From the IMG/VR virus record IMGVR_UViG_3300025109_000074, positions 1 through 22,649 of that record: a DNA stretch of 22,649 nt. One strand, 5' to 3'. Below are positions 5,083-8,260 of the stretch, one piece after another. The notes beneath the pieces are model-generated. The model saw only the letters and a program-made list of their open reading frames with translations. It searched no databases and was not told the origin of the DNA. The DNA comes from a virus. Positions within the stretch are counted from its first letter, which is position 1. Each line of letters begins with the position of its first letter. The position numbers and the translations under genes are program-made.

Positions 5083-5770
5083 TGGCTCTTTTAAATGAAT
5101 CTACTAATTTACCCTTCCATCCAAAATTCCCAATGTGGGTTGTTTCCCCATCAGCAACTGCGTATAATTTAAAACCAGCTCCCTTAATTAAATTACAGAA
5201 ATGTACATCTTCTCCCCACCAGTTGCCGTCTTTATCAAACGTTGTATCCCAGAAGTTATAAAAATAATTATTGGCTTCTTCGGATATTATTTCTTTTTGT
5301 TTTATTTTTAAATGTGGGAGATCTTTCATTAACTTTTCATAGACTCTTCTGTGAATCAAAGTGAGCCCTGCAGGGCCTTTAGTCAATTCAACTAAGCCTT
5401 TATTATCAATATTAATGTTCTGATGATCTTTAAAATCTACAGAAAATTTTACAGACTGATCTTGAGTCTTTTTTCTGTATGGAACACACATTACATCTTT
5501 CTGTGCTACAATCATTCTTCCTACAACCGAGGGCTCAAATTCCATATCGGCATCAATAAATAATTGATAGTCCATCCCTGATTCTAAAAACATTGCTGTT
5601 AATACATTTCTGCCATATCCAACATATGGACATTTAAAAGTGTTGAGTGTGGATTTAATTTTAGCGGCTGTAAATTTATCCATTAATTTAACTAATGATA
5701 AACATGTTGCCACTTGCATGGTATCATATGCAGGCATGCATACAGATACACTTGGTACTGGTGTCGTCAT
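5066..5770 (-). CDS. GT-A fold glycosyltransferase-like protein (paralogue 1)
   Basis: A 234-residue protein with the pattern of a family 2-like nucleotide-sugar transferase: N-terminal VSVCMPAYD (8-16), GRN (53-55), metal-binding DAD within FIDADM (71-76), GED (186-188, likely catalytic acid region) and THIG (211-214). The same ordered set appears in the gene at 18982-19878, so the two are paralogues. It lies between the primase and the helicase inside the replication operon, with an ATGA overlap with the primase (5770-5767). That location is unusual for an enzyme that would decorate a cell surface or virion and leaves room for a DNA or protein target. The donor and acceptor cannot be read from the sequence. 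There is no signal peptide, so it should act in the cytoplasm. Confidence 0.82.
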   Translation of the reverse strand: MTTPVPSVSVCMPAYDTMQVATCLSLVKLMDKFTAAKIKSTLNTFKCPYVGYGRNVLTAMFLESGMDYQLFIDADMEFEPSVVGRMIVAQKDVMCVPYRKKTQDQSVKFSVDFKDHQNINIDNKGLVELTKGPAGLTLIHRRVYEKLMKDLPHLKIKQKEIISEEANNYFYNFWDTTFDKDGNWWGEDVHFCNLIKGAGFKLYAVADGETTHIGNFGWKGKLVDSFKRANGKDS

Positions 5771-7395
5771 ACTATGTGCTCCTTATCTTCTATTGTTATT
5801 TTTTCATCTGGTATTTCTTCTTTTTCTAAATCTGCTATAGGCAGTTTTAAAACTCTTAATGGTGGAAATGAATCTTTGTTTTCTTTTTTAGGAAATCTTT
5901 TTTGACAATCAAAGTCTCCTTTAAAAAATTGTTTAATCATTGTACCCGTTCGTGATCTATCTTTATTCCATTCATTTGTTCTTAAATATTCGTAGAACTT
6001 ATCATAATCAAAATAATAAAACTCTTCCTCTTGGTGTACGGTTCCACTTTTAAATGCAGCAAATGTTGTAGCTTTAGCCATATTTACATAATCAATGATA
6101 TATTTTTTAAGCATATCGATTGGACTAGTTCCAGCTACAGGTTTTAAGTTTTCCAGTCTCGCCCAAAGTCCATCTAAGATTACTTGGTATTCAGCGTTCT
6201 TTATAATAGGGGGAAACACAGCAGTTTGTTCTGCTATGAGGGCTCTCATTTCTTTCATCTCTGAAATTTTTTTAATATGTTTAGCATGAATTTGTTTTAC
6301 TTTTCCACTTTCTAAATTAACATCAAACATAAACTCTGGCTCTGGTTTATAATTTATTCTTATAAGTCCAGATAATTCAGGCCATGTGGTATTTCTATGA
6401 CTCCCTATACCAAATTTTCTTTTTAAACAGGTTCCTTTGGCGCAATACGCAGAGATTGGTAAATCACTACATTTAAATCCTTTAGTTTCATTCTTCCAAT
6501 ATTTAATTTTTTCTTTTACTTTTTCATCTCCCCATATATCATCATACTGTATATAGTTTCGGGCAGCTTCTAATACTTTCTTTTCCCACACTTCAGCAAA
6601 TTTCTTTTTAGCAAAGACCATGTAATTGTATAAGAATCGATCTCTTTCATCTTTAAGTTTCTTACCACTATCATCTATTTCTTTACAAATCATTTGTAAA
6701 CATGGAGGGCCATCATTAAATTCTTCTGGTCCACCAGTTATAATCTCATTTATTTTTTTACTTCCAATATCTTTTAATGTTTCTTTAGTCTGTAAGTTTA
6801 AACCTACGACTTTAATAAATTCATCAAGTTCCATTTTGGTGCCATCCAATTTGTATGCTCTCCGTTCGCTACTTTTATAATATGGTAGATTAATAAAACT
6901 CCCCGATGTCTTTTCATTATTCTGGTTAGTTCCTAATTGAGTTTGTTTAGGAAAAATTTCTGTATTGTGTGGAAGTTTAAATAGAAATAATAAGTTTGAT
7001 AAAAATTCTCTGATTAAAGTAGCGGGTACTTTTTCTTTAGTAAAAATATAAATGTGAAGCCCACCACTTTTAGATTCAATTGGAATGACAGGTAAATTTT
7101 TTTCTTCAATAACCTTTAAATATTTTTGTAGATTAAAAGTTTTATAATCTTTAGGATCGACATCTATTGCTCCAAAGCTGGCTTGAGAATGATCATCACA
7201 AGGTTGAATTCCTATAGCCTTTTTCCCTGTCAGATGAGCTTCGTAATCTTGTTCGGTTATAGGTCGCTTAGACCATCCATAATCCCCTGAATCAAATTTT
7301 AATTTTCCACTTTCTGGTTCGATATATCCATTTTGAACATTACAGAAACCATAGTCTCTTTCTAGTCCACTAAAATATTTTGCAAATTCTTTCAT
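5767..7395 (-). CDS. Archaeo-eukaryotic-type primase with Cys-rich C-terminal module
   Basis: A 542-residue protein. The N-terminal third carries AEP superfamily marks: GAIDVDP (catalytic D78 and D80), SKSGGLHIYIF (S110, G111, G112, H114) and EIFPKQ (145-150), close to the primase domain named after TOTE conflict systems. The middle region carries PPCLQMIC (C233, C238) followed by CSDLPISAYCAKGTC (C310, C319, C324) and then KRKFGIG, an arrangement reminiscent of the iron-sulfur or zinc module of primase large subunits; that comparison is inference. The C-terminal 150 residues are alpha-helical and unassigned. It should make RNA or DNA primers for the family A polymerase. An AAGGAAT ribosome-binding site precedes the ATG. 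Upstream lies a structured gap with three inverted repeats. I see no fused helicase domain. Confidence 0.9.
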   Translation of the reverse strand: MKEFAKYFSGLERDYGFCNVQNGYIEPESGKLKFDSGDYGWSKRPITEQDYEAHLTGKKAIGIQPCDDHSQASFGAIDVDPKDYKTFNLQKYLKVIEEKNLPVIPIESKSGGLHIYIFTKEKVPATLIREFLSNLLFLFKLPHNTEIFPKQTQLGTNQNNEKTSGSFINLPYYKSSERRAYKLDGTKMELDEFIKVVGLNLQTKETLKDIGSKKINEIITGGPEEFNDGPPCLQMICKEIDDSGKKLKDERDRFLYNYMVFAKKKFAEVWEKKVLEAARNYIQYDDIWGDEKVKEKIKYWKNETKGFKCSDLPISAYCAKGTCLKRKFGIGSHRNTTWPELSGLIRINYKPEPEFMFDVNLESGKVKQIHAKHIKKISEMKEMRALIAEQTAVFPPIIKNAEYQVILDGLWARLENLKPVAGTSPIDMLKKYIIDYVNMAKATTFAAFKSGTVHQEEEFYYFDYDKFYEYLRTNEWNKDRSRTGTMIKQFFKGDFDCQKRFPKKENKDSFPPLRVLKLPIADLEKEEIPDEKITIEDKEHIV

Positions 7396-7435
7396 AATTT
7401 TTGAATTCCTTATATCTGAAATATGGCAAGATTAA

Positions 7436-7490
7436 GGGCGCCTCCACTCTCGCTTCAGCGCCCCTGTTGCAACATTTCCCATCGGGAAAT
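7436..7490 (-). promoter_or_regulatory. Structured intergenic segment with three inverted repeats
   Basis: Between the 256-residue gene and the primase there are three inverted repeats in 55 bases. ATTTCCC (7474-7480) pairs with GGGAAAT (7484-7490) around a 3-base loop and abuts the upstream stop codon. GTTGCAAC (7466-7473) is a perfect palindrome. GGGCGC (7436-7441) pairs with GCGCCC (7458-7463) around a 16-base loop. The last stem is GC-rich in an AT-rich genome. No proper T-run follows on the minus strand (CTTAATCTT), so it is not a standard intrinsic terminator. It could be a partial terminator or attenuator, an mRNA-stabilising 3' end for the abundant upstream message, or a protein-binding site. 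Confidence 0.55.
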
Positions 7491-8260
7491 TAGACTATGC
7501 CCTGTTGGACTTTAGGTTTCTCATACTGAGGTTTAGCTGATCCTTTCGAAACAGTTTTCTGAAGTTGTTGTGCAACTTCATAAATCTCAGCGTCCTTTTT
7601 ATCCCCTACATCAAGGTTTCTAACTCTTGATGGTTTATAGACATGCCAGCTTTTACTTCCCGCTGTTTTTCCAAATGTCTTTAAATTATAGACCGCTGAA
7701 TAAACCGCTGGATTAAAAGAACCTTCTGAATCTGAGAATCTAAGATTCTTAATCAGATTATTAAGTTCTCTTGCTGGTGTAAGATTGGATGATCTCATCG
7801 GAATAACCGCTGGTTTCAACTCATTACCTACCATTGCTAGTACATAAAAGTATGCAGTCTTCTCAACATAGTTACCATTTGGTAATCTATATCTTCCGTT
7901 TCTCTCCTCAACAGCATCCGTTGGAATCTCTAAGTGAGTTCCCACTGGAGCAGAAGCACTATCGCCTCTCTCTTGCCATTCAGGATATCTCGTTTGTGCA
8001 TGAGCCACAACTACATCAAGACCTTTATCACCTGCAATAAGTTCCCCGAAGCCTGATGCATAGATCATTCCCGGTTTTGAACCTGCTACATGTTTAGCGT
8101 CTCTCTCATTACATTCAGGTGAAAGTTGGTGTAGAATCTTTAAGATCGGAGTCGATACATCGTCCGCCTTAATTTCTTCCGCACCTTTACCTGCGTCTGC
8201 TCTGAGATTGATGTTAGCTAGTGCACCTGCACTATTTTTTTTAACTACTTCTTTATCCAT
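7490..8260 (-). CDS. Conserved phage replication-module protein, candidate ssDNA-binding protein
   Basis: A 256-residue soluble protein with an N-terminal INLRADA motif (17-23), then STPILKILHQLSPECNERDA (36-55), KPGMIY (62-67) and, in the second half, RLPNGNYVEKTAYFYVLAMV and NLKTFGKTAGSKSWHVYKPS. I recognise this layout from many phage proteins in replication modules that lack an experimental function; some pipelines suggest a single-stranded DNA-binding role, which fits the position just before the primase. It lacks the acidic tail of a classical SSB and ends instead in a basic, Gln-rich tail. A strong AAAGGAG ribosome-binding site and its place near the operon promoter suggest high expression. 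I am sure it is a gene and only weakly confident in the function. Confidence 0.85.
   Translation of the reverse strand: MDKEVVKKNSAGALANINLRADAGKGAEEIKADDVSTPILKILHQLSPECNERDAKHVAGSKPGMIYASGFGELIAGDKGLDVVVAHAQTRYPEWQERGDSASAPVGTHLEIPTDAVEERNGRYRLPNGNYVEKTAYFYVLAMVGNELKPAVIPMRSSNLTPARELNNLIKNLRFSDSEGSFNPAVYSAVYNLKTFGKTAGSKSWHVYKPSRVRNLDVGDKKDAEIYEVAQQLQKTVSKGSAKPQYEKPKVQQGIV

Follow-up and report, generated by a model that had tools for sequence, protein, structure and literature searches.

In phage T7 the T-phi terminator sits after the capsid gene, and in lambda mRNA the boxB element is a small hairpin with a GNRA-like loop; boxB, unlike the pelagiphage hairpin described here, has neither an internal loop nor a conserved G.U pair. 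Rho-independent terminators also share features with this hairpin, i.e. a GC-rich, stable stem-loop that is found after capsid or SSB-like genes, and its copies in host chromosomes mostly carry U-runs, whereas the phage copies mostly do not. The intercistronic stabilisers of E. coli malE-malF (PMC5927463) and Rhodobacter puf are likewise stem-loops without a U-run between co-transcribed genes, at the 3' end of the presumably more abundant gene. Unlike in these stabilisers, the loop, a G.U pair and an internal loop of the phage hairpin are conserved across divergent phages and host chromosomes. In SAR11, the rhtB motif (Meyer et al. 2009) is a single conserved hairpin beside rhtB, followed by a U-run in about half of the examples, and in this it resembles the host element described below; the word "phage" is absent from the main text of that article (PMC2704228). 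No Rfam 15 family matched the hairpin in its own orientation, either in the window or in chosen loci; the only hits were chance ones on the opposite strand or elsewhere, and membership in a known RNA family was rejected. Within the open-access literature searched, no title or abstract describes the hairpin in phages.

The window, which is the whole stretch of DNA that was analysed, corresponds to the 22,649-nt virus record IMGVR_UViG_3300025109_000074. The hairpin lies in the gap at 7396-7489 between an SSB-like gene and a primase gene. Because both genes are on the minus strand, the RNA of interest is that of the minus strand. The features are as follows.

7490..8260 (stop codon included), minus strand: upstream gene, Pam3_Gp34-like / phrog_2402, SSB-like, by homology match
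7474..7490, minus strand: small stem-loop, 7 bp with a loop of 3 bases, that reaches the stop codon and differs among relatives
7465..7474, no strand assigned: palindrome TGTTGCAACA, 10 bp, directly 5' of the hairpin
7435..7464, minus strand: core hairpin GGGGCGCTGAAGCGAGAGTGGAGGCGCCCT, by fold, covariation and a 50.8-bit match to model R1
7396..7434, minus strand: spacer between hairpin and primase, containing AAGGAA (7406-7411), a possible ribosome-binding site
5767..7395, minus strand: downstream gene, primase, with a PF22548 AEP-TOTE domain; phrog_21866

In the record of one relative, the product of the SSB-like gene is annotated as a ssDNA-binding protein. Pelagibacter phage HTVC027P shares 68% identity with the window in the primase and 80% in the SSB-like protein.

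An earlier note had described three inverted repeats in this gap, and all of them are present. Repeat (a), ATTTCCC/GGGAAAT, has the 7-bp arms (7474-7480 and 7484-7490) and 3-base loop that it was given, and its last base is also the last base of the SSB-like stop codon (7490-7492, minus strand). Repeat (b) is a perfect palindrome as claimed, although it measures 10 bp and not 8. For repeat (c), GGGCGC/GCGCCC, the 6-bp arms (7436-7441 and 7458-7463, with 16 bases between them) were correctly placed, but the structure was underestimated. As minus-strand RNA, it consists of a stem of 8-9 bp and a 3x3 purine internal loop (GAA/GGA), above which a G.U pair and a C-G pair are closed by a GAGA tetraloop. 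The core 30-mer has a predicted stability of -17.3 kcal/mol and 73% GC, and in a scan of both strands of the window at a step of 2, no 40-mer was more stable than the one here. The minus-strand RNA of 110 nt is matched or exceeded in folding by just one of 200 shuffles (z -2.55), and the plus-strand fold does not exceed shuffles notably (z -1.16). The high local GC content was also borne out: it is 60% over 7436-7490 versus 35% window-wide, a value reached by only 5 of 22,594 55-base windows. No T-run follows the hairpin in the window, again as noted. Element (c), unlike chance repeats, is kept with compensatory changes in relatives, and element (a) is missing from many of them.

A search for related primases returned 69 loci, in 14 of which the sequence ahead of the start codon is missing; in all 55 loci that include it, the hairpin lies upstream of the primase, on the coding strand and in one copy (19 distinct sequences). 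A pattern scan of IMG/VR added at least 117 loci. Among the matches listed, an SSB-like gene lies directly upstream in 97, 16 have at most ~360 bases upstream of the hairpin, and L072, L096, L105 and L142 show a capsid-region context instead; the genes 3' of the hairpin encode primases down to ~23-30% identity, or another protein family. We aligned 72 distinct sequences (A1), and because the patterns used to collect them fix several columns, those columns are conserved by construction. In the free columns, 99.5% of stem cells pair versus 79% in shuffles, with 131 double-change cells versus 42, sequence counts not being equivalent to independent events. The covarying stems that had been proposed as a check are therefore found in relatives, and they support the suggestion of a functional RNA element that serves in attenuation, processing or stabilisation. 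In A1, stem pairs 1, 2 and 7 show 17 G.T and 3 T.G mismatches, and no A.C or C.A. A second sample of 80 loci was picked via the SSB-like protein, i.e. independently of the hairpin, and 52 of these match the model. Its 43 distinct complete hairpins show 12 G.T/T.G and no A.C/C.A at stem pairs 1-7. This asymmetry argues that the hairpin acts as RNA, and points to folding on the coding strand.

The pair below the loop is never G-C, being G.U in 71 of the 72 sequences of A1 (A-U in the other), in 43/43 of the second sample and in 20/20 host copies, and the pair next to it flips freely. Caps in the 80 loci are GAGA-type in 72, a TAGC loop in 2 and neither in 6. Where the model found no match (28 loci), the gap always contains some other strong, GC-rich stem-loop; at L395, L397 and L399, a UUCG-capped hairpin stands in for the GAGA one. 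Copy number, which was counted only in 20 records chosen because they carry the hairpin, is one in 20/20. At L191, L193 and L195, the hairpin is contained in a short reading frame ahead of terminase, a context at odds with the stem-loop reading given below. Pelagiphage-like contigs with the hairpin were also seen in a Flavobacterium single-cell assembly (L189) and an Ascidiaceihabitans MAG (L190), where they are probably contamination.

The palindrome 5' of the hairpin varies in its letters by lineage (TGTTGCAACA, CTTGCAAG, TGTTATAACA, TGTAGCTACA, TCCTAGGA) and keeps its self-complementarity, which averages 6.7 nt in the upstream 24 nt of 99 sequences versus 2.9 nt in shuffles. It is too loop-less to form a hairpin. 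CCTAGG precedes the hairpin in HTVC103P and HTVC104P also.

Complete or named pelagiphages carrying the hairpin include HTVC027P, HTVC024P, HTVC100P, Greip, ten Skadi isolates, HTVC103P and HTVC104P. In HTVC010P-type phages (HTVC024P, HTVC100P, Greip and Skadi-7), it follows the major capsid protein gene or its neighbour, and in HTVC103P and HTVC104P it is 3' of an Hsp20 gene. Five of eight records tested at the capsid place gave no model match, and the equivalents there in HTVC010P, HTVC034P, HTVC028P, Lederberg and Baldr are plain strong hairpins. Plain hairpins also occupy the SSB-like/primase gap of 023Pt_psg01 and DSL-LC04, and in HTVC023P there is almost no gap.

The arrangement around the hairpin ties it to the gene that precedes it. 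Flanking genes are on the same strand, and the stable stem-loop is close behind the stop codon, with median distances of 16 nt from the stop and 10 nt to the following ATG (n = 130 each). At six loci (L005, L011, L060, L030, L058 and L069), an insert separates hairpin and primase, and in 6/6 the hairpin nevertheless remains 28-29 nt after the last SSB-like codon, which argues that it belongs to the upstream gene. These inserts are small genes that by eye are endonuclease-like or glycosylase-like. The idea that the element sets primase levels is therefore retained only in an indirect sense at most. Because a median of 10 nt to the ATG leaves no room for a promoter, transcription must pass the hairpin to reach the primase in most relatives.

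Hairpins nearly identical to that of the phages exist in SAR11 chromosomes. The phage hairpin model (R1) matches 65/347 Pelagibacterales genomes at E up to 0.1, and, at a tighter threshold (E up to 0.05), 1/385 of a class-wide sample, this match being a phage-like contig. A model of the host copies comprising the hairpin and 75 nt upstream (R2) matches 189/347 SAR11 genomes, with two copies in G512 and G613 and one in the others among the matches listed; the remaining 158/347 have no match at the cut-off. In the class control sample, R2 matches 1/289, namely the SAR11 genome G226, and the host element is absent outside SAR11 in that sample. That the genome set is SAR11 is deduced from its centre genome, G226, which has two SAM-V riboswitches, a marker typical of Pelagibacter. 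The aligned host core, GGAGGGAGACTGAA, shares the cap and the purine loop with the phage hairpin, differs from it by a swapped purine pair, and is mostly followed by a U-run. An invariant GAATC...TA block is found ~29 nt upstream in 46 distinct host copies, and the flanking genes differ between loci. Judging from these features, the host element looks like a short transcription unit. Rfam gave no match at the element in 5 loci. At host loci L240-L309, the 25-75 nt upstream of the hairpin contain the invariant GAATC...TA, frequently alongside a TTATCCACA-like sequence and GAGTC. These are possible CcrM (GANTC) and DnaA-box-like sites. An oriC reading of the host element built on these motifs was dropped as unproven, because GC skew sampled in three SAR11 genomes gave no consistent place for it. 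A general SAR11 terminator type was likewise rejected: 480 kb of host DNA yielded 12 hairpins that resemble terminators, and their loops differ from that of the element, with no GAGA among them.

No LysE-type neighbour was recognised by eye in the host-element loci inspected. Near LysE-family genes at L468 and L475-L479, SAR11 genomes carry another structured RNA, which is ~120 nt long and includes an extended terminator hairpin. Scans of four loci gave no Rfam match for it, and a relationship to the published rhtB motif is possible. The hairpins at these six LysE-adjacent loci differ in sequence from the host element, the rhtB motif itself being compared by its published description.

Taken together, we lean slightly towards reading the hairpin as an intercistronic 3'-end stem-loop in a polycistronic phage mRNA that would favour the upstream gene over the next. 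This reading builds on the linkage to the upstream gene, the exchange for plain hairpins, the usual lack of a U-run, the close spacing and the recurrence behind capsid and Hsp20 genes. The hairpin at the SSB-like 3' end would block 3'-to-5' decay and perhaps weakly pause or attenuate transcription, leaving the SSB-like segment of the mRNA longer-lived or more abundant than the primase segment. It would play the same role for capsid genes in HTVC010P-type phages and for Hsp20 in HTVC103P/104P, high expression of the upstream genes being assumed. Two findings sit uneasily with it: a plain stabilising hairpin needs no G.U fixed against G-C, and a general stabiliser would be expected in more than one copy per genome. 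The invariant cap would instead suit an operator, on which a phage or host RNA-binding protein blocks primase translation or couples it to the upstream gene, and the median end of the hairpin 10 nt before the ATG is within the expected 30S footprint. We nevertheless regard an operator as unlikely. An insert ahead of the primase leaves the hairpin beside the upstream gene, and the ATG follows at distances of 5 to 55 nt; in the window it is 39 nt away and has an AAGGAA of its own. Phage groups also differ in the gene that comes next, and UUCG-capped hairpins can replace the element; the insert loci and the other gene contexts weaken a primase-specific operator in particular. Somewhat more doubtful still is a phage mimic of the SAR11 hairpin RNA, whose copies would titrate, or be controlled by, the factor of the host element. 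The shared cap and purine loop, the invariant upstream block and the near restriction of R1 and R2 matches to SAR11 speak for such a mimic, but almost half of the SAR11 genomes gave no hit to R2 at the cut-off, phage and host could have converged on a stable fold, and a single mRNA copy is a weak titrator.

An intrinsic terminator or attenuator appears improbable. Host copies mostly have U-runs, the equivalent in HTVC034P and that in YuA, annotated as a predicted terminator after the SSB-like gene, resemble terminators, and the place after the capsid gene recalls T-phi. However, a U4 run occurs within 10 nt of the hairpin in just 13/138 phage copies, and a terminator would cut off the primase because there is little room for a promoter. 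The earlier note had also raised a replication origin; this, or a primase recognition site working as single-stranded DNA, is in our view very improbable. Such a site would account for the adjoining primase gene, the single copy in each of the 20 records chosen as carriers and the adjacent palindrome, but G.T without A.C mismatches on the coding strand, the same hairpin after capsid and Hsp20 genes and the presence of another protein family downstream in some loci speak against it.

Beyond the preferred reading of an intercistronic stem-loop, a SAR11 protein may recognise the cap, as is suggested by the invariant G.U beside the GAGA loop and by the occurrence of this hairpin in SAR11 chromosomes too, and hence phage and host may share a common way of recognising the hairpin. 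A host factor is plausible because HTVC027P relies on the host RNA polymerase (PMC12753301); the main text of that article contains no terms on expression of gp03/gp04. As a tentative proposal, SAR11 might make a free-standing hairpin RNA of ~45 nt, with its own GAATC...TA promoter and terminator, together with a factor for the G.U/GAGA cap, and at least three pelagiphage groups might have put the hairpin behind one key gene each, so that their mRNA would be shaped by this factor or titrate it. The fixed cap and the host copy suggest that the hairpin goes beyond known intercistronic stem-loops. Few organisms in the ocean are as abundant as SAR11 and its phages, and how these phages control expression through the host RNA polymerase is little known. 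A covarying hairpin in several phage groups and their host provides a concrete bait, 30 nt long, with which to fish for an RNA-binding factor, and a means to study how compact phage operons set stoichiometry.
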